DNA from: Xestospongia bergquistia
Taxonomy: Eukaryota; Porifera; Demospongiae; Haplosclerida; Petrosiidae
Direction: 5' to 3'
NCBI GenBank assembly: GCA_963965975.1
Contig: OZ014422.1
Span: forward strand, 1,922,001 to 1,986,000
Length of the DNA: 64,000 bases
A program made the translations under genes and the position numbers. This document shows positions 18,763 to 55,600 of the stretch, piece by piece. Within the stretch, counting starts at the first letter, position 1. Each line of letters starts with the position of its first letter. Below the pieces are notes generated by a model. The model was not told the origin of the DNA. It worked only from the letters and a program-made list of their open reading frames with translations, and ran no database searches.

Positions 18763-18836
18763 TTTGCACTTGGGGTTAAAAACTAGTACAGCATTCTAAT
18801 TAAAGCTCACTTGTTACTTTTCATTTTATTGGCAAC
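18763..18836. promoter_or_regulatory. 74-bp bidirectional promoter between kanadaptin and ALG1 start codons
   Basis: Two conserved genes start in opposite directions with only 74 bp between their ATGs, so their 5' UTRs are very short or their transcripts overlap. An inverted CCAAT box (attgg, 18828-18832) lies close to the ALG1 ATG. No TATA box is evident. Confidence 0.7.
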
Positions 18837-25682: not shown

Positions 25683-28600
25683 GTAAGACTTCAGTATATG
25701 AATTACATGTATAACACTCTAATGTCTGTAATTGTATATTTACTGTTATATCTTGCAAAATTAAAAAAAAACTTTTCTGTGTATATTACAACAAATATAC
25801 TCAGGGATTAAATTGTTAGATAGATTTCCTTTCTTTTAATAGTAGTAATTGTCATTATGTTTTCTTCTTGTATTGATGTAGCTGTGTCAGCTTGTTGTGA
25901 ACTTGGATATAGAAAAGCATTTGAGACTGGACTAAGTACATTTTGTTTTGGTCTAACATTTTCATCAGAGCCACAATGTAATAATGAAGCTCAGCAATGT
26001 TGTGAATGTTGTCATACTTCTTTACGTAAACTTGATGCTGGACAGATTTGTACAGATGATGGTGTAGCTGGTGCTCAATGCAAAATCATAACCAGAAGAT
26101 GTTGCGAAGACAAAGATAAACAAGGTAATACTACTCTTTCAGATAATAGTAAATATATAATAAACATGTTTACATTATATACACATTTGTCTTTGTTTAT
26201 TACTCTTCCATAGAACCAGCTTATGTTATTAGTATCAGTGATGATCAAACAGCTATTAATGGTAGCACAGTTACAATAGAGTGTATTGCTGGTGGTACTC
26301 CAAGTGTCTTTACCTATGAATGGATGAAAAATGGTATCAATATTTCAGGAGAAGCAAACTCAACATTAACAATATCCAGTGTTACTACCAGTGACATTGG
26401 AGAATATAAATGTACACCTTCTAACTCAAATGGTAACACAAACAGTTCCTCTAGCATTCTTAGTGTCAATGGTAAGTTCACAAATACATTTACTTCATTT
26501 AACAATCTCTGTTGTTTTATAATCCTTTGTTAGTTCCTCTTGCAATCAATGGATTAGTTTCTCAAACAATTTCTGGATTTGTTCCTAGTGCTCCCAATGG
26601 ATACATTATTACTCCATTGAATTCTAAGATCAATTTGACTTTATCTGGTGATTTGATAACTATGGTATTAAGTCCTGTTGACTCAGGAACCTACAATATT
26701 ACATCTCCTGACTTCAATGGAGCTATCATTGTACTTACACTAACAGTTTATGGTTAGTTTCTCTATAACTATGTCTACAATATTGTCAATATTACTATTA
26801 ATTTCATTTTGCTTAGAACCAGCTTATGTTATTAGTATCAGTGATGATCAAACAGCTATTAATGGTAGCACAGTTACAATAGAGTGTATTGCTGGTGGTA
26901 CTCCAAGTGTCTTTACCTATGAATGGATGAAAAATGGTGTAATTATCCCAGGACAAACTGGGTCAACATTAACAATATCCAGTGTTACTACCAGTGACAT
27001 TGGAGAATATAAATGTACACCTTCTAACTCATATGGTAACACAAACAGTTCCTCTAGCATTCTTAGTGTCAATGGTAAGTTCACAAATACATTTACTCCA
27101 TTTAACAATCTCTGTTGTTTTATAATCCTTTGTTAGTTCCTCTTGCAATCAATGGATTAGTTCCTCAAACAATTTCTGGATTTGTTCCTAGTGCTCCCAA
27201 TGGATACAGTATTATTCCATTTAATTCTAAAATCAATTTGACTTTATCTGGTGATTTGATAACAATGATATTAAGTCCTGTTGACTCAGGAACCTACAAT
27301 ATTACATCTCCTGACTTCAATGGAGCTTTTGTTGTACTTACATTAACTGTTTATGGTTAGTTTTGTTAACTTGATATAATGTAATAAGAATAATCTCTAA
27401 ACAATTAAAAATATAAACACGTTAAGGACATGAAGACATAAAATGACATGGTTAAGAAATAGTTTTACTACTGGCAGTATAATTTTTATAATAATTATAG
27501 GTCTTTGCTGCATTGTCAGTTTATTTTATGACTCGTTACTAATCAAATTGGAAATATTATATATTGTACATTATTCTATGCAGATTCTTACCTAGTTCTT
27601 TGTAGTGTTGTTTTTACATTCTTTTCAAACAGTCTTATCAAATAATTATTTGTAATGATTTTCCTATTGAACACACAGTAGCCATGTTTAAGTAAAGATG
27701 ACACAAATTGTCCATAGAAAGTTATAAAACATTAAATAGTTCAGTCAAAATAGATCATAATATCTCAATACTTGGTAGAGTCTCTTTCTACAGTAATTCT
27801 TAAGGAATGAGGGAGTAATGTTAAGTATCTTATTGAGATGTTCATATTTGTATTCCAAATATTGATATATTGCGAGCACATTCCCCAAACAAAATCCTAG
27901 CTAACGTTAGGTCCACTTCTATTTGTAAACTTCATTGGTTGAATAAAATTCTTTTCCCTATAGTAACAACAATAGTACCAACATCAATATCATCAGCTTT
28001 GTGTGTACTTACCGTTTCTGTTCTTCAATCATCAGTTTTAACTGTATCACCCACTCCATTAAGACCTGGTTAGTTTATCTTGTATCATATTCTTGTATCA
28101 TATTGTAATTGTCATTATGTTATTTTCTCGTATTGATGTAGCTGTGTCAGCTTGTTGTGAACTTGGATATAGAAAAGCATTTGAGACTGGACTAAGTACA
28201 TTTTGTTTTGGTCTAACATTTTCATCAGAGCCACAATGTAATAATGAAGCTCAGCAATGTTGTGAATGTTGTCATACTTCATTACGTAAACTTGATGCTG
28301 GACAGATTTGTACAGATGATGGTGTAGCCGGTGCTCAATGCAAAATCATAACCAAAAGATGTTGTGGTGAAGATCCTGAGCCATCAACAACAAAGATATC
28401 TATCACTACCACCAGTTATGAATGTATATTATCTTCAAGTGTGACCGTATCACCTACTCCATTAGGACTTGGTTAGTTTATCTAGTTAAGTAAGCAATGT
28501 GTCTATCTAATAAATATAACTTGAGTTGTTCATTTATTATGGTAAACTTACAAAGAGAATATAAATCAATTGAGCAAACATCTCATGAGGCACTGTAGCA

Positions 28601-31600
28601 ATTATAGTGTACTGTTATTTCAAGATAATAAAATTATAAAGATTTTATTTGTTTCTCCTCTTTTTATTAAAGTTATATAAAAGTGTGTGCCTACTTATGC
28701 CTACAATATTGTCAATATTCCTATAATTTTTAAATATAATCATTGGAATTTAATATATTACAAATAACTGTAGCTATATAAATACAATGTTCACTACTAC
28801 CAATATACATAATAAGAATTTATTATAATAGCCATGCATTGTCGCCATAGCAATAATAAGTCTAATTATAGATAATAGTAATTTTTTATAAAAATATTTA
28901 ATTTTATGTATAATTATCTTTTGTCTTTGTTTATTAATCTTGCTTAGAACCAGCTTATGTTATTAGTATCAGTGATGATCAAACAGCTATTAATGGTAGC
29001 ACAGTTACAATAGAGTGTATTGCTGGTGGTAATCCAAGTGTCTTTACCTATGAATGGATGAAAAATGGTGTAACTATTCCAGGACAAACAGGATCAACAT
29101 TAACAATATCCAGTGTTACTACCAGTGACATTGGAGAATATAAATGTACACCTTCTAACTCAAATGGTAACACAAACAGTTCCTCTAGCATTCTTAGTGT
29201 CAATGGTAAGTTCACAAATACTTTTTACTTCATTTAACAATTTCTGTAATTTTTTTAATCCTTTGTTAGTTTCTCTTGCAATCAATGGATTAGTTCCTCA
29301 AACAATTTCTGGATTTGTTCCTAGTGCTCCCAATGGATATGTTATTATTCCATTTAATTCTAAAATCAATTTGACTTTATCTGGTGATTTGATAACAATG
29401 GTATTAGGTTCTGTTGACTCAGGAACCTACAATATTACATCTCCTGACTTCAATGGAGCTATTGTTGTACTTACACTAACAGTTTATGGTTAGTTTCTCT
29501 ATAACTATGTCTACAATATTATCAATATTACTATTAATTTCATTTTGCTTAGAACCAGCTTATGTTATTAGTATCAGTGATGATCAAACAGCTATTAATG
29601 GTAGCACAGTTACAATAGAGTGTATTGCTGGTGGTACTCCAAGTGTCTTTACCTATGAATGGATGAAAAATGGTGTAATTATCCCAGGACAAACAGGGTC
29701 AACATTAACAATATCCAGTGTTACTACCAGTGACATTGGAGAATATAAATGTACACCTTCTAACTCATATGGTAACACAAACAGTTCCTCTAGCATTCTT
29801 AGTGTCAATGGTAAGTTCACAAATACATTTACTCCATTTAACAATCTCTGTTGTTTTATAATCCTTTGTTAGTTCCTCTTACAATCAATGGATTAGTTCC
29901 TCAAACAATTTCTGGATTTGTTCCTAGTGCTCCCAATGGATATGTTATTATTCCATTTAATTCTAAAATCAATTTGGCTTTATCTGGTGATTTGATAACA
30001 ATGGTATTAGGTCCTGTTGACTCAGGAACCTACAATATTACATCTCCTGACTTCAATGGAGCTATCATTGTACTTACACTAACAGTTTATGGTTAGTTTC
30101 TCTATAATTATGTCTACAATATTATCAATATTACTATTAATTTCATTTTGCTTAGAACCAGCTTATGTTATTAGTATCAGTGATGATCAAACAGCTATTA
30201 ATGGTAGCACAGTTAAAATAGAGTGTATTGCTGGCGGATTTCCAAGTGTTTTTACCTATGAATGGATGAAAAATGGTGTAACTATTCCAGGACAAACAGG
30301 ATCAACATTAACAATATCCAGTGTTACTACCAGTGACATTGGAGAATATAAATGTACACCTTCTAACTCATATGGTAACACAAACAGTTCCTCTAGCATT
30401 CTTAGTGTCAATGGTAAGTTCACAAATACATTTACTCCATTTAACAATCTCTGTTGTTTTATAATCCTTTGTTAGTTCCTCTTGCAATCAATGGATTAGT
30501 TCCTCAAACAATTTCTGGATTTGTTCCTAGTGTTCCCAATGGATATGTTATTATTCCATTTAATTCTAAAATCAATTTGACTTTATCTGGTGATTTGATA
30601 ACAATGGTATTAAGTCCTGTTGACTCAGGAACCTACAATATTACATCTCCTGACTTCAATGGAGCTATTGTTGTACTTACACTAACTGTTTATGGTTAGT
30701 TTTGTTAACTTGATATAATGTAATAAGAATAATCTCTAAACAATTAAAAATATAAACACGTTAAGGACATGAAGACATAAAATGACATGGTTAAGAAATA
30801 GTTTTACTACTGGCAGTATAATTTTTATAATAATTATAGGTCTTTGCTGCATTGTCAGTTTATTTTATGACTCGTTACTAATCAAATTGGAAATATTATA
30901 TATTGTACATTATTCTATGCAGATTCTTACCTAGTTCTTTGTAGTGTTGTTTTTACATTCTTTTCAAACAGTCTTATCAAATAATTATTTGTAATGATTT
31001 TCCTATTGAACACACAGTAGCCATGTTTAAGTAAAGATGACACAAATTGTCCATAGAAAGTTATAAAACATTAAATAGTTCAGTCAAAATAGATCATAAT
31101 ATCTCAATACTTGGTAGAGTCTCTTTCTACAGTAATTCTTAAGGAATGAGGGAGTAATGTTAAGTATCTTATTGAGATGTTCATATTTGTATTCCAAATA
31201 TTGATATATTGCGAGCACATTCCCCAAACAAAATCCTAGCTAACGTTAGGTCCACTTCTATTTGTAAACTTCATTGGTTGAATAAAATTCTTTTCCCTAT
31301 AGTAACAACAATAGTACCAACATCAATATCATCAGCTTTGTGTGTACCTACTGTTTCTGTTGTTCAATCATCAGTTTTAACTGTATCACCCACTCCATTA
31401 AGACCTGGTTAGTTTATCTTGTATTATATTGTAATTGCATTATGTTATTTTCTTGTATTGATGTAGCTGTGTCAGCTTGTTGTGAACTTGGATATAGAAA
31501 AGCATTTGAGACTGGACTAAGTACATTTTGTTTTGGTCTAACATTTTCATCAGAGCCACAATGTAATAATGAAGCTCAGCAATGTTGTGAATGTTGTCAT

Positions 31601-34600
31601 ACTTCATTACGTAAACTTGATGCTGGACAGATTTGTACAGATGATGGTGTAGCCGGTGCTCAATGCAAAATCATAACCAAAAGATGTTGTGGTGAAGATC
31701 CTGAGCCATCAACAACAAAGATATCTATCACTACCACCAGTTATGAATGTATATTATCTTCAAGTGTGACTGTAACACCAACTCCATTAAGACCTGGTTA
31801 GTTTATTTAGTAAAGTAAGCAATGTGTCTATCTAATAAATATAACTTGAGATGTTCATTTATTATGGTAAACTTACAAAGAGAATGTAAATTAATTGAGC
31901 AAACATCTCATGAGGCACTGTAGCATTATAGTGTACTGTTATTTCAAGATGATAAAATTATAAAGATTTTATTTGTTTGTGCTCTTTTTATTAAATTTAT
32001 AATATATACAAGTGTTCCTATAATTTTTAAATATAATCACTGGAATTTAATATATTTGTCCACTAAATAACTGTAGCTATATAAATACAATGTTCACTAC
32101 TACCAATATACATAATAAGAATTTATTATAATAGCCATGCATTGTCTCCATAGCAATAATTAGTCCAATTATAGATAATAGTAATTTTTTATAAATAATT
32201 TTATGTATAATTATCTTTTGTCTTTGTTTATTAATCTTGCTTAGAACCAGCTTATGTTATTAGTATCAGTGATGATCAAACAGCTATTAATGGTAGCACA
32301 GTTACAATAGAGTGTATTGCTGGTGGTATTCCAAGTGTCTTTACTTATGAATGGATGAAAAATGGTGTAACTATCCCAGGACAAACAGGATCAACATTAA
32401 CAATATCCAGTGTTACTACCAGTGACATTGGAGAATATAAATGTACACCTTCTAACTCATATGGTAACACAAACAGTTCCTCTAGCATTCTTAGTGTCAA
32501 TGGTAAGTTCACAAATACATTTACTCCATTTAACATTCTCTGTTGTTTTATAATCCTTTGTTAGTTCCTCTTGAAATCAATGGATTAGTTCCTCAAACAA
32601 TTTCTGGATTTGTTCCTAGTGCTTCCAATGGATACAGTATTATTCCATTTAATTCTAAAATCAATTTGGCTTTATCTGGTGATTTGATAACAATGGTATT
32701 AGGTCCTGTTGACTCAGGAATCTACAATATTACATCTCCTGACTTCAATGGAGCTATCGTTGTACTTACACTAACTGTTTATGGTTAGTTTCTCTATAAT
32801 TATGTCCACAATATTGTCAATATTACTATTAATTTCATTTTGCTTAGAACCAGCTTATGTTATTAGTATCAGTGATGATCAAACAGCTATTAATGGTAGC
32901 ACAGTTACAATAGAGTGTATTGCTGGTGGTACTCCAAGTGTCTATACCTATGAATGGATGAAAAATGGTGTAATTATCCCAGGACAAACAGGGTCAACAT
33001 TAACAATATCCAGTGTTACTACCAGTGACATTGGAGAATATAAATGTACACCTTCTAACTCAAATGGTAACACAAACAGTTCCTCTAGCATTCTTAGTGT
33101 CAATGGTAAGTTCACATATACATTTACTCCATTTAACAATCTCTGTTATTTTTTAATCCTTTGTTAGTTCCTCTTGCAATCAATGGATTAGTTCCTCAAA
33201 CAATTTCTGGATTTGTTCCTAGTGCTCTCAATGGATACATTATTATTCCATTTAATTCTAAAATCAATTTGACTTTATCTGGTGATTTGATAACAATGGT
33301 ATTAAGTCCTGTTGACTCAGGAACCTACAATATTACATCTCCTGACTTCAATGGAGCTATCATTGTACTTACACTAACAGTTTATGGTTAGTTTCTCTAT
33401 AACTATGTCTACAATATTATCAATATTACCATTAATTTCATTTTGCTTAGAACCAGCTTATGTTATTAGTATCAGTGATGATCAAACAGCTATTAATGGT
33501 AGCACAGTTACAATAGAGTGTATTGCTGGTGGTATTCCAAGTGTCTTTACCTATGAATGGATGAAAAATGGTGTAACTATTCCAGGACAAACAGGGTCAA
33601 CATTAACAATATCCAGTGTTACTACCAGTGACATTGGAGAATATAAATGTACACCTTCTAACTCAAATGGTAACACAAACAGTTCCTCTAGCATTCTTAG
33701 TGTCAATGGTAAGTTCACAAATACATTTACTTCATTTAACAATCTCTGTTGTTTTATAATCCTTTATTAGTTCCTCTTGCAATCAATGGATTAGTTCCTC
33801 AAGCAATTTCTGGATTTGTTCCTAGTGCTCTCAATGGATATGTTATATTTCCATTTAATTCTAAAATCAATTTGGCTTTATCTGGTGATTTGATAACAAT
33901 GGTATTAAGTCCTGTTGACTCAGGAATCTACAATATTACATCTCCTGACTTCAATGGAGCTATCGTTGTACTTACACTAACAGTTTATGGTTAGTTTCTC
34001 TATAATTATGTCCACAATATTGTCAATATTACTATTAATTTCATTTTGCTTAGAACCAGCTTATGTTATTAGTATCAGTGATGATCAAACAGCTATTAAT
34101 GGTAGCACAGTTACAATAGAGTGTATTGCTGGTGGTACTCCAAGTGTCTTTACCTATGAATGGATGAAAAATGGTATAATTATCCCAGGACAAACAGGGT
34201 CAACATTAACAATATCCAGTGTTACTACCAGTGACATTGGAGAATATAAATGTACACCTTCTAACTCAAATGGTAACACAAACAGTTCCTCTAGCATTCT
34301 TAGTGTCAATGGTAAGTTCACAAATACATTTACTTCATTTAACAATCTCTGTTGTTTTATAATCCTTTATTAGTTCCTCTTGCAATCAATGGATTAGTTC
34401 CTCAAACAATTTCTGGATTTGTTCCTAGTGCTCCCAATGGATATGTTATTTTTCCATTTAATTCTAAAATCAATTTGACTTTATCTGGTGATTTGATAAC
34501 AATGGTATTAAGTCCTGTTGACTCAGGAACCTACAATATTACATCTCCTGACTTCAATGGAGCTATTGTTGTACTTACACTAACTGTTTATGGTTAGTTT

Positions 34601-37600
34601 CTCTATAACTATGTCTACAATATTGACAATATTACTATTAATTTCATTTTGCTTAGAACCAGCTTATGTTATTAGTATCAGTGATGATCAAACAGCTATT
34701 AATGGTAGCACTGTTACAATAGAGTGTATTGCTGGTGGTATTCCAAGTGTCTTTAACTATCAATGGATGAAAAATGGTGTAACTATTCCAGGACAAACAG
34801 GATCAACATTAACAATATCCAGTGTTACTACCAGTGACATTGGAGAATATAAATGTACACCTTCTAACTCAAATGGTAACACAAACAGTTCCTCTAGCAT
34901 TCTTAGTGTCAATGGTAAGTTCACAAATACATTTACTCCATTTAACAATCTCTGTTGTTTTATAATCCTTTGTTAGTTCCTCTTGCAATCAATGGATTAG
35001 TTCCTCAAACAATTTCTGGATTTGTTCCTAGTGTTCCCAATGGATATGTTATTATTCCATTTAATTCTAAAATCAATTTGACTTTATCTGGTGATTTGAT
35101 AACAATGGTATTAAGTCCTGTTGACTCAGGAACCTACAATATTACATCTCCTGACTTCAATGGAGCTATTGTTGTACTTACACTAACTGTTTATGGTTAG
35201 TTTTGTTAACTTGATATAATGTAATAAGAATAATCTCTAAACAATTAAAAATATAAACATGTTAAGGACATGAAGACATAAAATGACATGGTTAAGAAAT
35301 AGTTTTACTACTGGCAGTATAATTTTATAATAATTATAGGTCTTTGCTGCATTGTCAGTTTATTTTATGACTCGTTACTAATCAAATTGGAAATATTATA
35401 TATTGTACATTATTCTATGCAGATTCTTACCTAGTTCTTTGTAGTATTGTTTTTACATTCTTTTCAAACAGTCTTATCAAATAATTATTTGTAATGATTT
35501 TCCTATTGAACACACAGTAGCCATGTCTAAGTAAAGATGACACAAATTGTCCATAGAAAGTTATAAAACATTAAATAGTTCAGTCAAAATAGATCATAAT
35601 ATCTCAACACTTGGTAGAGTCTCTTTCTACAGTAATTTTTAAGGAATGAGGGAGTAATGTTAAGTATCTTATTGAGATGTTCATATTTGTATTCTAAATA
35701 TTGATATATTGCGAGCACATTCCCCAAACAAAATCCTAGCTAACGTTAGGTCCACTTCTATTTGTAAACTTCATTGGTTGAATAAAATTCTTTTCCCTAT
35801 AGTAACAACTATAGTACCAACATCAATATCATCAGCTTTGTGTGTACCTACTGTTTCTGTTGTTCAATCATCAGTTTTAACTGTATCACCCACTCCATTA
35901 AGACCTGGTTAGTTTATCTTGTATCATATTGTAATTGTCATTATGTTATTTTCTTGTATTGATGTAGCTGTGTCAGCTTGTTGTGAACTTGGATATAGAA
36001 AAGCATTTGAGACTGGACTAAGTACATTTTGTTTTGGTCTAACATTTTCATCAGAGCCACAATGTAATAATGAAGCTCAGCAATGTTGTGAATGTTGTCA
36101 TACTTCATTACGTAAACTTGATGCTGGACAGATTTGTACAGATGATGGTGTAGCCGGTGCTCAATGCAAAATCATAACCAAAAGATGTTGTGGTGAAGAT
36201 CCTGAGCCATCAACAACAAAGATATCTATCACTACCACCAGTTATGAATGTATATTATCTTCAAGTGTGACTGTAACACCAACTCCATTAAGACCTGGTT
36301 AGTTTATTTAGTAAAGTAAGCAATGTGTCTATCTAATAAATATAACTTGAGATGTTCATTTATTATGGTAAACTTACAAAGAGAATGTAAATTAATTGAG
36401 CAAACATCTCATGAGGCACTGTAGCATTATAGTGTACTGTTATTTCAAGATGATAAAATTATAAAGATTTTATTTGTTTGTGCTCTTTTTATTAAATTTA
36501 TAATATATACAAGTGTTCCTATAATTTTTAAATATAATCACTGGAATTTAATATATTTGTCCACTAAATAACTGTAGCTATATAAATACAATGTTCACTA
36601 CTACCAATATACATAATAAGAATTTATTATAATAGCCATGCATTGTCTCCATAGCAATAATTAGTCCAATTATAGATAATAGTAATTTTTTATAAATAAT
36701 TTTATGTATAATTATCTTTTGTCTTTGTTTATTAATCTTGCTTAGAACCAGCTTATGTTATTAGTATCAGTGATGATCAAACAGCTATTAATGGTAGCAC
36801 AGTTACAATAGAGTGTATTGCTGGTGGTATTCCAAGTGTCTTTACTTATGAATGGATGAAAAATGGTGTAACTATCCCAGGACAAACAGGATCAACATTA
36901 ACAATATCCAGTGTTACTACCAGTGACATTGGAGAATATAAATGTACACCTTCTAACTCATATGGTAACACAAACAGTTCCTCTAGCATTCTTAGTGTCA
37001 ATGGTAAGTTCACAAATACATTTACTCCATTTAACAATCTCTGTTGTTTTATTATCTTTTGTTAGTTCCTCTTGAAATCAATGGATTAGTTCCTCAAACA
37101 ATTTCTGGATTTGTTCCTAGTGCTCTCAATGGATATGTTATTATTCCATTTAATTCTAAAATCAATTTGACTTTATCTGGTGATTTGATAACAATGGTAT
37201 TAAGTCCTGTTGACTCAGGAATCTACAATATTACATCTCCTGACTTCAATGGAGCTATCGTTGTACTTACACTAACTGTTTATGGTTAGTTTCTCTATAA
37301 CTATGTCTACAATATTGACAATATTACTATTGATTTCATTTTGCATAGAACCAGCTTATGTTATTAGTATCAGTGATGATCAAACAGCTATTAATGGTAG
37401 CACAGTTACAATAGAGTGTATTGCTGGTGGTATTCCAAGTGTCTTTACCTATGAATGGATGAAAAATGGTGTAACTATTCCAGGACAAACAGGATCAACA
37501 TTAACAATATCCAGTGTTACTACCAGTGACATTGGAGAATATAAATGTACACCTTCTAACTCATATGGTAACACAAACAGTTTCTCTAGCATTCTTAGTG

Positions 37601-40600
37601 TCAATGGTAAGTTCACAAATACATTTACTCCATTTAACAATCTCTGTTGTTTTATAATCCTTTGTTAGTTCCTCTTACAATCAATGGATTAGTTCCTCAA
37701 ACAATTTCTGGATTTGTTCCTAGTGCTCTCAATGGATATGTTATTATTCCATTTAATTCTAAAATCAATTTGACTTTATCTGGTGATTTGATAACAATGG
37801 TATTAAGTCCTGTTGACTCAGGAATCTACAATATTACATCTCCTGACTTCAATGGAGCTATCATTGTACTTACACTAACTGTTTATGGTTAGTTTCTCTA
37901 TAACTATGTCTACAATATTATCAATATTACTATTAATTTCATTTTGCTTAGAACCAGCTTATGTTATTAGTATCAGTGATGATCAAACAGCTATTAATGG
38001 TAGCACAGTTAAAATAGAGTGTATTGCTGGTGGTATTCCAAGTGTCTTTATCTATCAATGGATGAAAAATAGTGTAACTATTCCAGGACAAACAGGATCA
38101 ACATTAACAATATCCAGTGTTACTACCAGTGACATTGGAGAATATAAATGTACACCTTCTAACTCATATGGTAACACAAACAGTTCCTCTAGCATTCTTA
38201 GTGTCAATGGTAAGTTCACAAATACATTTACTTCATTTAACAATCTCTGTTGTTTTATAATCCTTTATTAGTTCCTCTTGCAATCAATGGATTAGTTCCT
38301 CAAGCAATTTCTGGATTTGTTCCTAGTGCTCTCAATGGATATGTTATATTTCCATTTAATTCTAAAATCAATTTGACTTTATCTGGTGATTTGATAACAA
38401 TGGTATTAAGTCCTGTTGATTCAGGAACCTACAATATTACATCTCCTGACTTCAATGGAGCTATCGTTGTACTTACATTAACTGTTTATGGTTAGTTTCT
38501 CTATAACTATGTCTACAATATTGACAATATTACTATTAATTTCATTTTGCTTAGAACCAGCTTATGTTATTAGTATCAGTGATGATCAAACAGCTATTAA
38601 TGGTAGCACAGTTACAATAGAGTGTATTGCTGGTGGTATTCCAAATGTCTTTAACTATCAATGGATGAAAAATGGTGTAACTATTCCAGGACAAACAGGA
38701 TCAACATTAACAATATCCAGTGTTAATACTAGTGACATTGGAGAATATAAATGTACACCTACTAACTCAAATGGTAACACAAACAGTTCCTCTAGCATTC
38801 TTAGTGTCAATGGTAAGTTCACAAATACATTTACTTCATTTAACAATCTCTGTTGTTTTATAATCCTTTATTAGTTCCTCTTGCAATCAATGGATTAGTT
38901 CCTCAAACAATTTCTGGATTTGTTCCTAGTGCTCCCAATGGATATGTTATTTTTCCATTTAATTCTAAAATCAATTTGACTTTATCTGGTGATTTGATAA
39001 CAATGGTATTAAGTCCTGTTGACTCAGGAACCTACAATATTACATCTCCTGACTTCAATGGAGCTATTGTTGTACTTACACTAACTGTTTATGGTTAGTT
39101 TCTCTATAACTATGTCTACAATATTGACAATATTACTATTAATTTCATTTTGCTTAGAACCAGCTTATGTTATTAGTATCAGTGATGATCAAACAGCTAT
39201 TAATGGTAGCACTGTTACAATAGAGTGTATTGCTGGTGGTATTCCAAGTGTCTTTAACTATCAATGGATGAAAAATGGTGTAACTATTCCAGGACAAACA
39301 GGATCAACATTAACAATATCCAGTGTTACTACCAGTGACATTGGAGAATATAAATGTACACCTTCTAACTCAAATGGTAACACAAACAGTTCCTCTAGCA
39401 TTCTTAGTGTCAATGGTAAGTTCACAAATACATTTACTCCATTTAACAATCTCTGTTGTTTTATAATCCTTTGTTAGTTCCTCTTGCAATCAATGGATTA
39501 GTTCCTCAAACAATTTCTGGATTTGTTCCTAGTGTTCCCAATGGATATGTTATTATTCCATTTAATTCTAAAATCAATTTGACTTTATCTGGTGATTTGA
39601 TAACAATGGTATTAAGTCCTGTTGACTCAGGAACCTACAATATTACATCTCCTGACTTCAATGGAGCTATTGTTGTACTTACACTAACTGTTTATGGTTA
39701 GTTTTGTTAACTTGATATAATGTAATAAGAATAATCTCTAAACAATTAAAAATATAAACATGTTAAGGACATGAAGACATAAAATGACATGGTTAAGAAA
39801 TAGTTTTACTACTGGCAGTATAATTTTTAAAATAATTATAGGTCTTTGCTGCATTGTCAGTTTATTTTATGACTCGTTACTAATCAAATTGGAAATATTA
39901 TATATTGTACATTATTCTATGCAGATTCTTACCTAGTTCTTTGTAGTGTTGTTTTTACATTCTTTTCAAACAGTCTTATCAAATAATTATTTGTAATGAT
40001 TTTCCTATTGAACACACAGTAGCCATGTCTAAGTAAAGATGACACAAATTGTCCATAGAAAGTTATAAAACATTAAATAGTTCAGTCAAAATAGATCATA
40101 ATATCTCAATACTTGGTAGAGTCTCTTTCTACAGTAATTTTTAAGGAATGAGGGAGTAATGTTAAGTATCTTATTGAGATGTTCATATTTGTATTCTAAA
40201 TATTGATATATTGCGAGCACATTCCCCAAACAAAATCCTAGCTAACGTTAGGTCCACTTCTATTTGTAAACTTCATTGGTTGAATAAAATTCTTTTCCCT
40301 ATAGTAACAACTATAGTACCAACATCAATATCATCAGCTTTGTGTGTACCTACTGTTTCTGTTGTTCAATCATCAGTTTTAACTGTATCACCCACTCCAT
40401 TAAGACCTGGTTAGTTTATCTTGTATCATATTGTAATTGTCATTATGTTATTTTCTTGTATTGATGTAGCTGTGTCAGCTTGTTGTGAACTTGGATATAG
40501 AAAAGCATTTGAGACTGGACTAAGTACATTTTGTTTTGGTCTAACATTTTCATCAGAGCCACAATGTAATAATGAAGCTCAGCAATGTTGTGAATGTTGT

Positions 40601-43600: not shown

Positions 43601-46600
43601 TTTCTCTATAACTATGTCTACAATATTGACAATATTACTATTAATTTCATTTTGCTTAGAACCAGCTTATGTTATTAGTATCAGTGATGATCAAACAGCT
43701 ATTAATGGTAGCACTGTTACAATAGAGTGTATTGCTGGTGGTATTCCAAGTGTCTTTAACTATCAATGGATGAAAAATGGTGTAAATATTCCAGGACAAA
43801 CAGGATCAACATTAACAATATCCAGTGTTACTACCAGTGACATTGGAGAATATAAATGTACACCTTCTAACTCAAATGGTAACACAAACAGTTCCTCTAG
43901 CATTCTTAGTGTCAATGGTAAGTTCACAAATACATTTACTCCATTTAACAATCTCTGTTGTTTTATAATCCTTTGTTAGTTCCTCTTGCAATCAATGGAT
44001 TAGTTCCTCAAACAATTTCTGGATTTGTTCCTAGTGTTCCCAATGGATATGTTATTATTCCATTTAATTCTAAAATCAATTTGACTTTATCTGGTGATTT
44101 GATAACAATGGTATTAAGTCCTGTTGACTCAGGAACCTACAATATTACATCTCCTGACTTCAATGGAGCTATTGTTGTACTTACACTAACTGTTTATGGT
44201 TAGTTTTGTTAACTTGATATAATGTAATAAGAATAATCTCTAAACAATTAAAAATATAAACATGTTAAGGACATGAAGACATAAAATGACATGGTTAAGA
44301 AATAGTTTTACTACTGGCAGTATAATTTTTAAAATAATTATAGGTCTTTGCTGCATTGTCAGTTTATTTTATGACTCGTTACTAATCAAATTGGAAATAT
44401 TATATATTGTACATTATTCTATGCAGATTCTTACCTAGTTCTTTGTAGTGTTGTTTTTACATTCTTTTCAAACAGTCTTATCAAATAATTATTTGTAATG
44501 ATTTTCCTATTGAACACACAGTAGCCATGTCTAAGTAAAGATGACACAAATTGTCCATAGAAAGTTATAAAACATTAAATAGTTCAGTCAAAATAGATCA
44601 TAATATCTCAATACTTGGTAGAGTCTCTTTCTACAGTAATTTTTAAGGAATGAGGGAGTAATGTTAAGTATCTTATTGAGATGTTCATATTTGTATTCTA
44701 AATATTGATATATTGCGAGCACATTCCCCAAACAAAATCCTAGCTAACGTTAGGTCCACTTCTATTTGTAAACTTCATTGGTTGAATAAAATTCTTTTCC
44801 CTATAGTAACAACTATAGTACCAACATCAATATCATCAGCTTTGTGTGTACCTACTGTTTCTGTTGTTCAATCATCAGTTTTAACTGTATCACCCACTCC
44901 ATTAAGACCTGGTTAGTTTATCTTGTATCATATTGTAATTGTCATTATGTTATTTTCTTGTATTGATGTAGCTGTGTCAGCTTGTTGTGAACTTGGATAT
45001 AGAAAAGCATTTGAGACTGGACTAAGTACATTTTGTTTTGGTCTAACATTTTCATCAGAGCCACAATGTAATAATGAAGCTCAGCAATGTTGTGAATGTT
45101 GTCATACTTCATTACGTAAACTTGATGCTGGACAGATTTGTACAGATGATGGTGTAGCCGGTGCTCAATGCAAAATCATAACCAAAAGATGTTGTGGTGA
45201 AGATCCTGAGCCATCAACAACAAAGATATCTATCACTACCACCAGTTATGAATGTATATTATCTTCAAGTGTGACTGTAACACCAACTCCATTAAGACCT
45301 GGTTAGTTTATTTAGTAAAGTAAGCAATGTGTCTATCTAATAAATATAACTTGAGATGTTCATTTATTATGGTAAACTTACAAAGAGAATGTAAATTAAT
45401 TGAGCAAACATCTCATGAGGCACTGTAGCATTATAGTGTACTGTTATTTCAAGATGATAAAATTATAAAGATTTTATTTGTTTGTGCTCTTTTTATTAAA
45501 TTTATAATATATACAAGTGTTCCTATAATTTTTAAATATAATCACTGGAATTTAATATATTTGTCCACTAAATAACTGTAGCTATATAAATACAATGTTC
45601 ACTACTACCAATATACATAATAAGAATTTATTATAATAGCCATGCATTGTCTCCATAGCAATAATTAGTCCAATTATAGATAATAGTAATTTTTTATAAA
45701 TAATTTTATGTATAATTATCTTTTGTCTTTGTTTATTAATCTTGCTTAGAACCAGCTTATGTTATTAGTATCAGTGATGATCAAACAGCTATTAATGGTA
45801 GCACAGTTACAATAGAGTGTATTGCTGGTGGTATTCCAAGTGTCTTTACTTATGAATGGATGAAAAATGGTGTAACTATCCCAGGACAAACAGGATCAAC
45901 ATTAACAATATCCAGTGTTACTACCAGTGACATTGGAGAATATAAATGTACACCTTCTAACTCATATGGTAACACAAACAGTTCCTCTAGCATTCTTAGT
46001 GTCAATGGTAAGTTCACAAATACATTTACTCCATTTAACAATCTCTGTTGTTTTATAATCCTTTGTTAGTTCCTCTTGAAATCAATGGATTAGTTCCTCA
46101 AACAATTTCTGGATTTGTTCCTAGTGCTTCCAATGGATACAGTATTATTCCATTTAATTCTAAAATCAATTTGGCTTTATCTGGTGATTTGATAACAATG
46201 GTATTAAGTCCTGTTGACTCAGGAATCTACAATATTACATCTCTTGACTTCAATGGAGCTATCATTGTACTTACACTAACTGTTTATGGTTAGTTTCTCT
46301 ATAATTATGTCCACAATATTGTCAATATTACTATTAATTTCATTTTGCTTAGAACCAGCTTATGTTATTAGTATCAGTGATGATCAAACAGCTATTAATG
46401 GTAGCACAGTTACAATAGAGTGTATTGCTGGTGGTACTCCAAGTGTCTTTACCTATGAATGGATGAAAAATGGTGTAATTATCCCAGGACAAACAGGGTC
46501 AACATTAACAATATCCAGTGTTACTACCAGTGACATTGGAGAATATAAATGTACACCTTCTAACTCAAATGGTAACACAAACAGTTCCTCTAGCATTCTT

Positions 46601-49600
46601 AGTGTCAATGGTAAGTTCACATATACATTTACTCCATTTAACAATCTCTGTTATTTTTTAATCCTTTGTTAGTTCCTCTTGCAATCAATGGATTAGTTCC
46701 TCAAACAATTTCTGGATTTGTTCCTAGTGCTCTCAATGGATACATTATTATTCCATTTAATTCTAAAATCAATTTGACTTTATCTGGTGATTTGATAACA
46801 ATGGTATTAAGTCCTGTTGACTCAGGAACCTACAATATTACATCTCCTGACTTCAATGGAGCTATCATTGTACTTACACTAACAGTTTATGGTTAGTTTC
46901 TCTATAACTATGTCTACAATATTATCAATATTACCATTAATTTCATTTTGCTTAGAACCAGCTTATGTTATTAGTATCAGTGATGATCAAACAGCTATTA
47001 ATGGTAGCACAGTTAAAATAGAGTGTATTGCTGGTGGTATTCCAAGTGTCTTTACCTATGAATGGATGAAAAATGGTGTAACTATTCCAGGACAAACAGG
47101 GTCAACATTAACAATATCCAGTGTTACTACCAGTGACATTGGAGAATATAAATGTACACCTTCTAACTCAAATGGTAACACAAACAGTTCCTCTAGCATT
47201 CTTAGTGTCAATGGTAAGTTCACAAATACATTTACTTCATTTAACAATCTCTGTTGTTTTATAATCCTTTATTAGTTCCTCTTGCAATCAATGGATTAGT
47301 TCCTCAAGCAATTTCTGGATTTGTTCCTAGTGCTCTCAATGGATATGTTATATTTCCATTTAATTCTAAAATCAATTTGACTTTATCTGGTGATTTGATA
47401 ACAATGGTATTAAGTCCTGTTGATTCAGGAACCTACAATATTACATCTCCTGACTTCAATGGAGCTATCGTTGTACTTACATTAACTGTTTATGGTTAGT
47501 TTCTCTATAACTATGTCTACAATATTGACAATATTACTATTAATTTCATTTTGCTTAGAACCAGCTTATGTTATTAGTATCAGTGATGATCAAACAGCTA
47601 TTAATGGTAGCACAGTTAAAATAGAGTGTATTGCTGGTGGTATTCCAAGTGTCTTTACCTATGAATGGATGAAAAATGGTGTAATTATCCCAGGACAAAC
47701 AGGGTCAACATTAACAATATCCAGTGTTACTACCAGTGACATTGGAGAATATAAATGTACACCTTCTAACTCAAATGGTAACACAAACAGTTCCTCTAGC
47801 ATTCTTAGTGTCAATGGTAAGTTCACAAATACATTTACTTCATTTAACAATCTCTGTTGTTTTATAATCCTTTATTAGTTCCTCTTGCAATCAATGGATT
47901 AGTTCCTCAAACAATTTCTGGATTTGTTCCTAGTGCTCCCAATGGATATGTTATTTTTCCATTTAATTCTAAAATCAATTTGACTTTATCTGGTGATTTG
48001 ATAACAATGGTATTAAGTCCTGTTGACTCAGGAACCTACAATATTACATCTCCTGACTTCAATGGAGCTATTGTTGTACTTACACTAACTGTTTATGGTT
48101 AGTTTCTCTATAACTATGTCTACAATATTGACAATATTACTATTAATTTCATTTTGCTTAGAACCAGCTTATGTTATTAGTATCAGTGATGATCAAACAG
48201 CTATTAATGGTAGCACTGTTACAATAGAGTGTATTGCTGGTGGTATTCCAAGTGTCTTTAACTATCAATGGATGAAAAATGGTGTAAATATTCCAGGACA
48301 AACAGGATCAACATTAACAATATCCAGTGTTACTACCAGTGACATTGGAGAATATAAATGTACACCTTCTAACTCAAATGGTAACACAAACAGTTCCTCT
48401 AGCATTCTTAGTGTCAATGGTAAGTTCACAAATACATTTACTCCATTTAACAATCTCTGTTGTTTTATAATCCTTTGTTAGTTCCTCTTGCAATCAATGG
48501 ATTAGTTCCTCAAACAATTTCTGGATTTGTTCCTAGTGTTCCCAATGGATATGTTATTATTCCATTTAATTCTAAAATCAATTTGACTTTATCTGGTGAT
48601 TTGATAACAATGGTATTAAGTCCTGTTGACTCAGGAACCTACAATATTACATCTCCTGACTTCAATGGAGCTATTGTTGTACTTACACTAACTGTTTATG
48701 GTTAGTTTTGTTAACTTGATATAATGTAATAAGAATAATCTCTAAACAATTAAAAATATAAACATGTTAAGGACATGAAGACATAAAATGACATGGTTAA
48801 GAAATAGTTTTACTACTGGCAGTATAATTTTTAAAATAATTATAGGTCTTTGCTGCATTGTCAGTTTATTTTATGACTCGTTACTAATCAAATTGGAAAT
48901 ATTATATATTGTACATTATTCTATGCAGATTCTTACCTAGTTCTTTGTAGTGTTGTTTTTACATTCTTTTCAAACAGTCTTATCAAATAATTATTTGTAA
49001 TGATTTTCCTATTGAACACACAGTAGCCATGTCTAAGTAAAGATGACACAAATTGTCCATAGAAAGTTATAAAACATTAAATAGTTCAGTCAAAATAGAT
49101 CATAATATCTCAATACTTGGTAGAGTCTCTTTCTACAGTAATTTTTAAGGAATGAGGGAGTAATGTTAAGTATCTTATTGAGATGTTCATATTTGTATTC
49201 TAAATATTGATATATTGCGAGCACATTCCCCAAACAAAATCCTAGCTAACGTTAGGTCCACTTCTATTTGTAAACTTCATTGGTTGAATAAAATTCTTTT
49301 CCCTATAGTAACAACTATAGTACCAACATCAATATCATCAGCTTTGTGTGTACCTACTGTTTCTGTTGTTCAATCATCAGTTTTAACTGTATCACCCACT
49401 CCATTAAGACCTGGTTAGTTTATCTTGTATCATATTGTAATTGTCATTATGTTATTTTCTTGTATTGATGTAGCTGTGTCAGCTTGTTGTGAACTTGGAT
49501 ATAGAAAAGCATTTGAGACTGGACTAAGTACATTTTGTTTTGGTCTAACATTTTCATCAGAGCCACAATGTAATAATGAAGCTCAGCAATGTTGTGAATG

Positions 49601-52600
49601 TTGTCATACTTCATTACGTAAACTTGATGCTGGACAGATTTGTACAGATGATGGTGTAGCCGGTGCTCAATGCAAAATCATAACCAAAAGATGTTGTGGT
49701 GAAGATCCTGAGCCATCAACAACAAAGATATCTATCACTACCACCAGTTATGAATGTATATTATCTTCAAGTGTGACTGTATCACCAACTCCATTAAGAC
49801 CTGGTTAGTTTATTTAGTAAAGTAAGCAATGTGTCTATCTAATAAATATAACTTGAGATGTTCATTTATTATGGTAATCTTACAAAGAGAATGTAAATTA
49901 ATTGAGCAAACATCTCATGAGGCACTGTAGCATTATAGTGTACTGTTATTTCAAGATGATAAAATTATAAAGATTTTATTTGTTTGTGCTCTTTTTTATT
50001 AAAGTTATATAAAAATATATGTCTACTTATGCCTACAATATTGTCAATATTCCTATAATTTTTAATATAATCATTGGAATTTAATATATTTGTCAACTAA
50101 ATAACTGTAGCAATATAAATACAATGTTCACTACTACCAATATACATAATAAGAATTTATTATAATAGCCATGCATTGTCTCCATAGCAATAATAAGTCC
50201 AATTATAGATAATAGTAATTTTTTATAAATAATTTTATGTATAATTATCTTTTGTCTTTGTTTATTAATCTTGCTTAGAACCAGCTTATGTTATTAGTAT
50301 CAGTGATGATCAAACAGCTATTAATGGTAGCACAGTTACAATAGAGTGTATTGCTGGTGGTATTCCAAGTGTCTTTACCTATGAATGGAAGAAAAATGGT
50401 GTAACTATTCCAGGACAAACAGGATCAACATTGACAATATCCAGTGTTACTACCAGTGACATTGGAGAATATAAATGTACACCTTCTAACTCATATGGTA
50501 ACACAAACAGTTCCTCTAGCATTCTTAGTGTCAATGGTAAGTTCACAAATACATTTACTCCATTTAACAATCTCTGTTGTTTTATAATCTTTTGTTAGTT
50601 CCTCTTGCAATCAATGGATTAGTTCCTCAAACAATTTCTGGATTTGTTCCTAGTGCTTCCAATGGATATATTATTATTCCATCTAATTCTAAAATCAATT
50701 TGACTTTATCTGGTGATTTGATAACAATGGTATTAAGTCCTGTTGACTCAGGAATCTACAATATTACATCTCCTGACTTCAATGGAGCTATCGTTGTACT
50801 TACACTAACTGTTTATGGTTAGTTTCTCTATAACTATGTCTACAATATTGTCAATATTACTATTGATTTCATTTTGCTTAGAACCAGCTTATGTTATTAG
50901 TATCAGTGATGATCAAACAGCTATTAATGGTAGCACAGTTAAAATAGAGTGTATTGCTGGTGGTATTCCAAGTGTCTTTACCTATGAATGGATGAAAAAT
51001 GGTGTAACTATCCCAGGACAAACAGGATCAACATTAACAATATCCAGTGTTACTACCAGTGACATTGGAGAATATAAATGTACACCTTCTAACTCATATG
51101 GTAACACAAACAGTTCCTCTAGCATTCTTAGTGTCAATGGTAAGTTCACAAATACATTTACTCCATTTAACAATCTCTGTTGTTTTATAATCCTTTGTTA
51201 GTTCCTCTTGCAATCAATGGATTAGTTCCTCAAACAATTTCTGGATTTGTTCCTAGTGCTTCCAATGGATATGTTATTATTCCATTTAATTCTAAAATCA
51301 ATTTGACTTTATCTGGTGATTTGATAACAATGGTATTAAGTCCTGTTGACTCAGGAACCTACAATATTACATCTCCTGATTTCAATGGAGCTATCGTTGT
51401 ACTTACACTAACTGTTTATGGTTAGTTTCTCTATAACTATGTCTACAATATTGTAAATTTACTATTGATTTCATTTTGCTTAGAACCAGCTTATGTTATT
51501 AGTATCAGTGATGATCAAACAGCTATTAATGGTAGCACAGTTACAATAGAGTGTATTGCTGGTGGTATTCCAAGTGTCTTTACTTATGAATGGATGAAAA
51601 ATGGTGTAACTATTCCAGGACAAACAGGATCATCATTAACAATATCCAGTGTTACTACCAGTGACATTGGAGAATATAAATGTACACCTTCTAACTCATA
51701 TGGTAACACAAACAGTTCCTCTAGCATTCTTAGTGTCAATGGTAAGTTCACAAATACATTTACTTCATTTAACAATCTCTGTTGTTTTATAATCCTTTGT
51801 TAGTTTCTCTTGCAATCAATGGATTAGTTCCTCAAACAATTTCTGGATTTGTTCCTAGTGCTTCCAATGGATATGTTATTATTCCATTTAATTCTAAAAT
51901 CAATTTGACTTTATCTGGTGATTTGATAACAATGGTATTAAGTCCTGACGACTCAGGAACCTACAATATTACATCTCCTGACTTCAATGGAGCTATCATT
52001 GTACTTACACTAACTGTTTATGGTTAGTTTCTCTATAACTATGTCTACAATATTGTCAATATTACTATTGATTTCATTTTGCTTAGAACCAGCTTATGTT
52101 ATTAGTATCAGTGATGATCAAACAGCTATTAATGGTAGCACAGTTACAATAGAGTGTATTGCTGGTGGTATTCCAAGTGTCTTTACCTATGAATGGATGA
52201 AAAATGGTGTAACTATTCCAGGACAAACAGGATCAACATTAACAATATCCAGTGTTACTACCAGTGACATTGGAGAATATAAATGTACACCTTCTAACTC
52301 ATATGGTAACACAAACAGTTCCTCTAGCATTCTTAGTGTCAATGGTAAGTTCACAAATACATTTACTCCATTTAACAATCTCTGTTGTTTTATAATCCTT
52401 TGTTAGTTCCTCTTGCAATCAATGGATTAGTTCCTCAAACAATTTCTGGATTTGTTCCTAGTGCTTCCAATGGATATGTTATTATTCCATTTAATTCTAA
52501 AATCAATTTGACTTTATCTGGTGATTTGATAACAATGGTATTAAGTCCTGTTGACTCAGGAACCTACAATATTACATCTCCTGATTTCAATGGAGCTATC

Positions 52601-55600
52601 GTTGTACTTACACTAACTGTTTATGGTTAGTTTCTCTATAACTATGTCTACAATATTGTAAATTTACTATTGATTTCATTTTGCTTAGAACCAGCTTATG
52701 TTATTAGTATCAGTGATGATCAAACAGCTATTAATGGTAGCACAGTTACAATAGAGTGTATTGCTGGTGGTATTCCAAGTGTCTTTACTTATGAATGGAT
52801 GAAAAATGGTGTAACTATTCCAGGACAAACAGGATCATCATTAACAATATCCAGTGTTACTACCAGTGACATTGGAGAATATAAATGTACACCTTCTAAC
52901 TCATATGGTAACACAAACAGTTCCTCTAGCATTCTTAGTGTCAATGGTAAGTTCACAAATACATTTACTTCATTTAACAATCTCTGTTGTTTTATAATCC
53001 TTTGTTAGTTCCTCTTGCAATCAATGGATTAGTTCCTCAAACAATTTCTGGATTTGTTCCTAGTGCTTCCAATGGATATGTTATTATTCCATTTAATTCT
53101 AAAATCAATTTGACTTTATCTGGTGATTTGATAACAATGGTATTAAGTCCTGACGACTCAGGAACCTACAATATTACATCTCCTGACTTCAATGGAGCTA
53201 TCATTGTACTTACACTAACTGTTTATGGTTAGTTTCTCTATAACTATGTCTACAATATTGTCAATATTACTATTGATTTCATTTTGCTTAGAACCAGCTT
53301 ATGTTATTAGTATCAGTGATGATCAAACAGCTATTAATGGTAGCACAGTTAAAATAGAGTGTATTGCTGGTGGTATTCCAAGTGTCTTTACCTATGAATG
53401 GATGAAAAATGGTGTAACTATCCCAGGACAAACAGGATCAACATTAACAATATCCAGTGTTACTACCAGTGACATTGGAGAATATAAATGTACACCTTCT
53501 AACTCATATGGTAACACAAACAGTTCCTCTAGCATTCTTAGTGTCAATGGTAAGTTCACAAATACATTTACTCCATTTAACAATCTCTGTTGTTTTATAA
53601 TCCTTTGTTAGTTCCTCTTGCAATCAATGGATTAGTTCCTCAAACAATTTCTGGATTTGTTCCTAGTGCTTCCAATGGATATGTTATTATTCCATTTAAT
53701 TCTAAAATCAATTTGACTTTATCTGGTGATTTGATAACAATGGTATTAAGTCCTGTTGACTCAGGAACCTACAATATTACATCTCCTGATTTCAATGGAG
53801 CTATCGTTGTACTTACACTAACTGTTTATGGTTAGTTTCTCTATAACTATGTCTACAATATTGTAAATTTACTATTGATTTCATTTTGCTTAGAACCAGC
53901 TTATGTTATTAGTATCAGTGATGATCAAACAGCTATTAATGGTAGCACAGTTACAATAGAGTGTATTGCTGGTGGTATTCCAAGTGTCTTTACTTATGAA
54001 TGGATGAAAAATGGTGTAACTATTCCAGGACAAACAGGATCATCATTAACAATATCCAGTGTTACTACCAGTGACATTGGAGAATATAAATGTACACCTT
54101 CTAACTCATATGGTAACACAAACAGTTCCTCTAGCATTCTTAGTGTCAATGGTAAGTTCACAAATACATTTACTTCATTTAACAATCTCTGTTGTTTTAT
54201 AATCCTTTGTTAGTTCCTCTTGCAATCAATGGATTAGTTCCTCAAACAATTTCTGGATTTGTTCCTAGTGCTTCCAATGGATATGTTATTATTCCATTTA
54301 ATTCTAAAATCAATTTGACTTTATCTGGTGATTTGATAACAATGGTATTAAGTCCTGTTGACTCAGGAACCTACAATATTACATCTCCTGACTTCAATGG
54401 AGCTATCGTTGTACTTACACTAACTGTTTATGGTTAGTTTCTCTATAACTATGTCTACAATATTGTAAATTTACTATTGATTTCATTTTGCTTAGAACCA
54501 GCTTATGTTATTAGTATCAGTGATGATCAAACAGCTATTAATGGTAGCACAGTTACAATAGAGTGTATTGCTGGTGGTATTCCAAGTGTCTTTACTTATG
54601 AATGGATGAAAAATGGTGTAACTATTCCAGGACAAACAGGATCATCATTAACAATATCCAGTGTTACTACCAGTGACATTGGAGAATATAAATGTACACC
54701 TTCTAACTCATATGGTAACACAAACAGTTCCTCTAGCATTCTTAGTGTCAATGGTAAGTTCACAAATACATTTACTTCATTTAACAATCTCTGTTGTTTT
54801 ATAATCCTTTGTTAGTTTCTCTTGCAATCAATGGATTAGTTCCTCAAACAATTTCTGGATTTGTTCCTAGTGCTTCCAATGGATATGTTATTATTCCATT
54901 TAATTCTAAAATCAATTTGACTTTATCTGGTGATTTGATAACAATGGTATTAGGTCCTGTTGATTCAGGAACCTACAATATTACATCTCCTGACTTCAAT
55001 GAAGCTATTGTTGTACTTACACTAACTGTTTATGGTTAGTTGAGTTATCTGGGGTACCATATTGAAAATGAAAATAATATTAGGATCATAAATATCTATA
55101 CATAGTTTCATATAATACTATCATACTGAGATATTAAGCTAAATTTTGACTGATTTGGTGATGCTAGGTCGAAATGATACCTGATTTGAACCACTCAAGT
55201 CAGGTATTACTTGACTCTAACTAGAGTGTCACTAATGTAAAAAATTAGTAGCATATATTGGTTGTACTTCACTAAAGACAAGTATGTTCATAATACAACT
55301 TATTGAGTTATACACTAAAGTATTTGCGTCAGTGTAAGTGTATTACTGTAAATATAGTTACATGTTGGTATGCCTATTAGTTATATACATGGAAATATAT
55401 ATCATAGTGTGAAGGAAGTAACTTAGTCTTGTACAAAATAAGTTGTTTTATTAACTAACTGTTAGTCTTGATGCTATGATATTTGTTGTTTTATTAATTT
55501 TTGTAGTCCCAAATATTAAAATGGTTAATCCTATTATAACAACTACTGAGGATGTTGGGACTGTTGGTGTTTGTGTTGAGCTGACTGGAAATGGCTATCA

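Follow-up and report, generated by a model that had tools for sequence, protein, structure and literature searches.

Coding units in tandem and in nested repeats are already known from several genes. In excerpts of the titin literature, the middle immunoglobulin (Ig) segment is described as having one Ig domain per exon, with groups of 6 or 10 Ig domains multiplied (PMC12241362), and super-repeats of the A-band are described as well (PMC10665226). Excerpts on primate NBPF genes report coding tandem units of ~1.6 kb, carrying Olduvai domains, in 3mer higher-order repeats (PMC11675761), and those on human LPA a protein-coding kringle IV type 2 (KIV-2) unit of 5.6 kb with 1-40 repeats per allele (PMC11462820). 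In this study we describe a gene of the sponge Xestospongia bergquistia in which exon pairs encoding Ig domains are repeated at more than one level. The window, i.e. the whole stretch of DNA that was analysed, covers 64,000 nucleotides of contig OZ014422.1 (C12:1922001-1986000), and the searched genome comprises 146,460,797 bases in 21 contigs. A sequence-only reading of the same stretch had known of no described gene with exactly this arrangement. In view of NBPF and of titin, the suggestion that nothing comparable is described is not supported; among the listings, abstract beginnings and selected passages available to us, however, no published paper recognisably describes this gene. What is unusual here is a combination of domains that we did not find described, the recency of the repeats, the depth of their nesting and a further repeat system in mucin-like exons.

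Our analysis suggests that the locus is probably one intact gene for a giant secreted glycoprotein of the extracellular matrix or of adhesion, with a predicted length of 9,818 amino acids, in a sponge related to Amphimedon. The gene model has 92 exons over 42,168 bases, of which 29,457 are coding, and a single, terminal stop 3,447 bases beyond the window end (~3.4 kb into L009, the DNA directly 3' of the window). All 91 introns are of the GT-AG type and 85 of the 92 exons are symmetric in phase 1-1. The predicted protein has a mass of 1.02 MDa before sugars, 159 N-glycosylation sequons and a Ser+Thr content of 28.5%. A signal-peptide-like start and an N-terminal domain are followed by seven units of the type FLD-(A-B)n, where FLD is a cysteine-rich module, putatively fibulin anaphylatoxin-like, and A and B are two kinds of Ig exon; a linker follows six of the units. 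Then come two Calx-beta domains, a linker, FLD exons 8 and 9, laminin-EGF and laminin-G. On C12 both the N-terminal exon and the laminin-G end are present as single copies and the 92 exons share one frame, which strengthens the single-gene reading and agrees with the earlier claim of one gene. That claim had been tied to 25882..55034. The array itself lies there, but the gene is larger and this span is only its middle part: the FLD exons at 57118 and 58816 and the Calx-beta, mucin-like, laminin-EGF and laminin-G parts belong to the same gene.

In k-mer distances the dominant periods are 603 and 4,502 bases. Pattern searches found 33 A exons, 33 B exons, 9 FLD exons and 8 linker-like starts. 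A and B alternate; every A exon is 258 bp and every B exon 219 bp long (33/33 each), and all are open, in phase 1-1, with an AG acceptor and a GT donor. The A-B intron measures 62 bp in 32/33 cases and 64 bp in one. Six of the 32 B-A gaps cross block borders, and in the 26 within blocks the intron is 64 bp (22) or 63 bp (4) long. The period of the monomer within blocks is 603 bp in 21/26 cases, 602 bp in four, all of them in block 7, and 605 bp in one, in block 2. Mean pairwise identity is 97.8% among A exons and 96.7% among B exons (33 copies each), and, counting introns of equal length, 97.3% for A-B (32/33) and 96.5% for B-A (22/26). Since the intron identities are close to those of the exons, introns travel with exons. 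The 33 copies of each kind encode 19 different proteins for A and 18 for B, which differ at few sites. A monomer of 603 bp in 33 copies (A 258, intron 62, B 219, intron 64), with introns duplicated along with the exons and every unit coding, phase-1 and open, had been proposed from the sequence alone, and these points hold, the last for all 66 A and B exons.

Above the monomer stands a block. The seven FLD blocks carry 2, 3, 5, 5, 5, 5 and 8 AB pairs, and the block lengths given before (3339, 4500, 4502, 4502 and 4502 bp) equal the spacings of the linker starts (Table 1). In blocks 3-6 the mean number of exon differences is 4.63 in register and 13.5 off register, and none of 20,000 within-block permutations was as low; without block 6 the values are 6.0 and 13.5, again with 0/20,000. 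Because the monomers of these blocks match by position, the higher-order repeat is real. The lag profile of their 20 monomers dips at lags 5 and 10 only (lags 1-11). From FLD to FLD, blocks 5 and 6 differ at 2/4,502 positions (99.96% identical), blocks 3 and 5 at 21 and a gap, blocks 4 and 5 at 46, and blocks 3 and 4 at 59 and a gap. The first 1,069 positions are identical in all four blocks and the differences between blocks are clustered as in a mosaic, which we read as repeated exchange and not as one duplication. In block 7 the succession of periods is 603/602/603/602/603/602/602, and a pairing by parity is seen for monomers 2-7 (2.0 versus 6.7 differences), but the lag-2 value over all eight monomers was reached in 1,257/20,000 shuffles. 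Hence of the three nested levels proposed earlier the monomer and the block stand, and the 1205-bp dimer of block 7 is weaker. The comparison with satellite DNA is apt for the pattern only, as what is repeated here belongs to a protein gene that has relatives at other places in the genome. Both the monomers and the whole blocks have been multiplied and homogenised in recent time, along with their introns.

Several modules could be assigned by Pfam. Ig-A matches Ig_3 (E 8.7e-16, one A copy searched), and both Ig cysteines are present in 33/33 copies on C12, the Cys-Cys pair of the immunoglobulin superfamily. One B exon, modelled along with 26 relatives, appears Ig-like; in Pfam the first of these 27 members had no match, Sp38 Ig, seen in 4 members with a best E of 0.048, was the commonest weak match, and the rest were meaningless. 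Calx-beta was found in two stretches (E 6.2e-25), a minor part of the protein, and laminin-EGF and laminin-G with E 1.2e-14 and 1.6e-7. The N-terminal domain (115 residues after the signal-like start) had no Pfam match up to E 10. The FLD core, which as protein is identical in 8/9 copies, had no Pfam match. A hit of the full FLD exon to DUF5948 (E 0.0013) scored 19.2, below the cut-off of 23.7, and was not used. For residues 1-90 of the FLD-9 frame 39 candidates were scored, none with E<=1 (only proteins of ~950-3,020 amino acids were eligible), and a sequence search of FLD against PDB gave seven matches, all to unrelated enzymes (best E 0.093). A second, independent nested repeat of 69-bp (23-amino-acid) T/P-rich units occupies window 57438-64000 and L009 1-2850. 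These mucin-like repeats are broken by a larger unit with nine copies on C12 and two on another contig, C4 (89-100% identity; a twelfth match, weak and partial, was excluded). FLD exon 9 has a full length of 7,274 nt, with laminin-EGF at its end; the laminin-G exons and the stop follow.

Table 1. Position, strand and supporting analyses of the gene's features and of its neighbours (window coordinates unless L009 is given; FLD, cysteine-rich module, putatively fibulin anaphylatoxin-like; AB, Ig-A/Ig-B exon pair; S/T/P, serine/threonine/proline)
Feature	Position	Strand	Analysis
Exon 1: ATG, signal-peptide-like start and N-terminal domain (134 amino acids), phase-1 donor	25280..25682	+	gene model
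FLD exon 1	25882..26124	+	pattern search, gene model, fold comparison
Block 1: 2 AB pairs with introns	26214..27355	+	pattern search, exon check
Linker exon 1 (S/T/P-rich)	27964..28068	+	pattern search, gene model
FLD exon 2	28142..28471	+	pattern search, gene model
Block 2: 3 AB pairs	28948..30694	+	pattern search, exon check
Linker exon 2	31303..31407	+	pattern search, gene model
FLD exon 3	31467..31796	+	pattern search, gene model
Block 3: 5 AB pairs	32245..35195	+	pattern search, exon check, block comparison
Linker exon 3	35803..35907	+	pattern search, gene model
FLD exon 4	35968..36297	+	pattern search, gene model
Block 4: 5 AB pairs	36746..39696	+	pattern search, exon check, block comparison
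Linker exon 4	40305..40409	+	pattern search, gene model
FLD exon 5	40470..40799	+	pattern search, gene model
Block 5: 5 AB pairs	41248..44198	+	pattern search, exon check, block comparison
Linker exon 5	44807..44911	+	pattern search, gene model
FLD exon 6	44972..45301	+	pattern search, gene model
Block 6: 5 AB pairs	45750..48700	+	pattern search, exon check, block comparison
Linker exon 6	49309..49413	+	pattern search, gene model
FLD exon 7	49474..49803	+	pattern search, gene model
Block 7: 8 AB pairs; monomers 2-7 show a partial dimer pattern	50279..55034	+	exon check, block comparison, permutations
Two Calx-beta domains in four exons	55507-55656, 55709-55921, 55982-56128, 56283-56498	+	gene model, Pfam
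Linker-type exon 3' of the Calx-beta domains	56872..57057	+	gene model
FLD exon 8, running into a T/P-rich mucin-like stretch (69-bp repeats)	57118..58755	+	repeat scan, gene model
FLD exon 9 fused to long mucin-like stretch	58816..64000, continues past window	+	repeat scan, gene model, Pfam
Upstream minisatellites: 37/137/192-bp; 26-bp x 20.6; 23-bp x 20; 27-bp x 9.6	10282-10786, 11747-12288, 20578-21036, 21855-22111		
Upstream neighbour: FHA-domain frame (6.2e-18)	18010-18795	-	
Downstream neighbour: Tam41-type mitochondrial enzyme (8.7e-29, one exon frame)	L009 5039-6570	+	

Scans of the window with Rfam (at the gathering threshold) and for tRNAs gave no matches. As in the nested coding repeats of titin and NBPF, the unit consists of exon and intron, monomers are alike in register and the frame is kept throughout. 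Titin resembles the sponge gene in that Ig-domain exons are multiplied in groups, and the near-identity of introns is seen in the sponge gene. However, titin is an intracellular muscle protein that has none of the FLD, Calx-beta, mucin-like and laminin-G parts. NBPF encodes a different domain, whereas the higher unit of the sponge gene consists of five AB pairs, FLD and linker in a matrix-type gene. For LPA, variation between individuals is known, whereas the sponge gene is represented by one assembly; nesting was looked for, and seen, in the sponge gene only. With the class of hemicentin, fibulin and perlecan the gene shares long Ig arrays, laminin-EGF, laminin-G and, tentatively, a fibulin-like module, but it has a laminin-G C-terminus and additional Calx-beta and mucin-like parts. 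Hemicentin begins with a VWA domain and closes with a nidogen-G2F/EGF/fibulin end; the sponge gene has the long Ig array, an N-terminal domain that matches no Pfam family and a C-terminus of laminin-EGF and laminin-G. In perlecan SEA and LDLa domains stand ahead of the Ig array, where the sponge gene has only the N-terminal domain and the FLD core, both without a Pfam match. With no Pfam family matched by the N-terminal domain, neither VWA nor SEA nor LDLa is seen there. The tandem Calx-beta domains are a feature of the sponge aggregation factor, whose specific core domain is Wreath. Excerpts of a study on perlecan evolution give the order LDLa, Ig, laminin, EGF and report for Amphimedon queenslandica clusters of Ig modules (37 predicted in close proximity) and scattered perlecan-like motifs, with no perlecan-like gene (PMC4398486).

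The whole-genome search for FLD gave 16 matches in three places only: nine in this gene, and four and three in two loci on C4 (C4a and C4b). The N-terminal domain occurs in the same three places (one copy on C12, two on C4), and the laminin-G end in this gene only, besides matches of 27-28% on contig C5. C4a has the order N-terminal domain, FLD, linker, FLD, three AB, linker, FLD, linker, FLD, and one of these FLD modules contains an in-frame TAG; in C4b the N-terminal and A exons are split. As far as can be read from these sequences, the long gene reads through and its shorter C4 relatives are damaged, C4a by one stop. C4b also has a lone diverged B exon (62% identity) with no A partner detected (L015 1677-1895 = C4:2301677-2301895). 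AB pairs are also arrayed at three loci of contig C2 (C2a, C2b and C2c). C2a contains 30 A and 31 B copies, for the most part at a spacing of 572 bp, with Ig domains before the array and Ig and FN3 after it, followed by a hydrophobic stretch and an acidic tail; from its unspliced sequence it appears to be a membrane-receptor-like gene. A higher-order pattern was sought in C2a and not found, the lag profile of the B exons being flat (15.6-18.2 over lags 1-11). In C2a (L017-L019, C2:6394877-6413706) 28/30 A domains lack the first Ig cysteine and keep the second, as do 3/9 in C2c and 7/7 counted Amphimedon copies; both are kept in 33/33 on C12, 4/4 in C2b and 4/4 on C4. Such an unpaired cysteine might connect domains with one another.

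Among named proteins the closest belong to A. queenslandica, with 44 and 53% identity. Two proteins of this species, P0007 (named hemicentin-2-like) and P0008, carry the same alternating Ig pair in tandem. Both read as membrane receptors that have a hydrophobic stretch as well as an acidic tail, in a layout like that of C2a, as opposed to the predicted secreted protein described here; no FLD, mucin-like or laminin-G parts were seen in the two sequences. Against this genome P0008 reaches 60% at the best-scoring place and at most 66% among the places listed, which makes it unlikely that the genome is that of A. queenslandica itself. Residues 1000-1233 of P0008 match the FN3-bearing frame of C2a at 42%; FN3 is not among the precomputed Pfam domains of P0007 and P0008. 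We built trees of 87 A and 92 B copies, in which 7 and 6 copies, picked by pattern, are from Amphimedon; the trees have few columns and many unresolved forks. A branch with 100/99 support parts the Amphimedon copies from all copies of this genome, from which it follows that copies were homogenised within each genome, not cleanly locus by locus. The C12 and C4 copies group in the A tree (99/96) and weakly in the B tree (91/68), with one C4b copy outside. Copies of C2a, C2b and C2c interleave, and some pairs across loci are strong (one C2a A with one C2c A, 100/100). This interleaving argues against each array simply homogenising on its own.

Some of our results weigh against an intact gene for a secreted matrix protein. 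The splice joins of the 92-exon model were picked by reading and not by a gene finder or RNA. Four of the five Ig-B models have a mean predicted local distance difference test (pLDDT) of 69-74, and the fibulin anaphylatoxin-like (ANATO) call for FLD is weak both in the structure model (pLDDT 65) and in Foldseek (E 1.3); the Pfam scans covered the modules other than linkers and mucin-like stretches. Hydropathy was examined in a simple scan, with no dedicated signal-peptide or membrane predictor. The signal-like start peaks at 1.57, slightly below the usual mark of 1.6, which 34 stretches exceed. All of these lie at Ig-B ends or in linkers, and in the last 300 residues none is above the mark (peak 1.06), so that we read the protein as having no membrane anchor. 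With so many stretches above the mark, 'secreted' depends on this reading of their positions and our confidence is slightly lowered. Selection is weak within the C12 array, where the ratio of nonsynonymous to synonymous differences (pN/pS) is 0.52 for A and 0.71 for B; 70 distinct exon changes with zero stops have a probability of 0.075 under no constraint, and within C2a the ratio of the corresponding rates (dN/dS) is 0.99 for A (0.60 for B). Comparison of this gene with the C2 loci gave dN/dS values of 0.30-0.35 (B) and 0.44-0.70 (A), calculated from full-length copies only (C2a, C2b, C2c: 28/30, 4/4 and 7/9 A; 31/31, 4/5 and 9/11 B). The values against C4a are 0.35 (A) and 0.64 (B), and those against C4b, which is damaged, are 0.92 for the single A copy and 1.17 for B. 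Protein constraint is thus supported over longer times and weak among the youngest copies. Although A and B travel paired, their synonymous divergence (pS) between C12 and C2 is very unequal, with 0.19-0.22 for A and a far higher 0.42-0.46 for B; this could reflect constraint on codons or A exons exchanged between contigs.

It is possible, although we consider it clearly the less probable reading, that the locus is a coding copy-number polymorphism like KIV-2 of LPA, with a block or AB number that varies by individual, and that the gene is an individual-specific determinant of adhesion or allorecognition. The very recent turnover seen in blocks 3-6 would fit, as would the AB number, which varies by locus (33 here, three in C4a, 30 A and 31 B in C2a), and a module common to receptor-like genes. 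However, the basis is one assembly, and the uniform A, B and FLD domains are unlike hypervariable recognition domains. In the main text of an Amphimedon grafting transcriptome study, a search for immunoglobulin, Ig domain, hemicentin and fibulin found none of these terms (PMC5450542). We regard it as rather unlikely that the array is a splicing cassette, in which one gene yields many isoforms of varying AB number by a Dscam- or titin-like choice. With 85 of the 92 exons symmetric, any subset of the phase 1-1 exons stays in frame, but near-identical exons yield little diversity besides length, and symmetric phase-1 exons are expected from tandem duplication alone. An inflation of the 4.5-kb block number during assembly is improbable: the near-identity of blocks 5 and 6 might suggest it, but blocks 3, 4 and 5 differ mutually in a mosaic at 21 to 59 aligned positions (with a gap too in 2/3 pairs), block sizes of 2, 3, 5 and 8 AB are distinct, and AB arrays exist at other loci too. 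Because blocks 5 and 6 differ at only two positions, this worry stays mainly for the exact block number. That the locus consists of several short genes, each separate, or is an array of decaying pseudogenes might be suggested by the damaged C4 relatives but is very improbable in view of the single N-terminal exon and laminin-G end on C12 and of 92 exons in one frame with no inner stop.

If the locus is indeed one gene for a secreted matrix or adhesion protein, Ig-A and Ig-B would alternate as stiff rods, set apart by FLD modules and S/T/P linkers. The Calx-beta domains may bind calcium, as their type suggests, the mucin-like stretches might serve as extended glycosylated spacers, and the laminin-G end could tether the molecule to other partners in the matrix or on the cell surface. 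With near-identical introns and symmetric exons, unequal crossing-over and gene conversion would add, remove or swap whole domains in frame; for addition and removal this follows directly from the sequence. As such exchange does not break the frame, rod length and the number of sticky modules could change fast in evolution. Arrays of this Ig pair are also present in receptor-like genes of the genome; hence we infer that the pair may be a module for adhesion, employed on a secreted scaffold in one case and on cells in the other.

In conclusion, this gene shows cleanly, and at a very recent stage, how a giant gene of the matrix may grow, by an exon pair and then by a block of pairs; since its introns are still nearly as alike as its exons, the steps of exchange can be read directly. 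In this early-branching animal lineage the Ig pair is found both in receptor-like genes and in a scaffold predicted to be secreted, which points to a candidate scaffold-receptor adhesion pair. A more far-reaching idea, to which we give little credence at present, is that the secreted and the receptor-like arrays form a matched, length-tunable adhesion system, with pair-to-pair binding between scaffold and cell, a copy number in rapid concerted turnover that differs between individuals, and repeat length as a cue of self and non-self or of tissue cohesion. If block number does vary among individuals, the length of a coding repeat could be tied to tissue properties or to graft acceptance.

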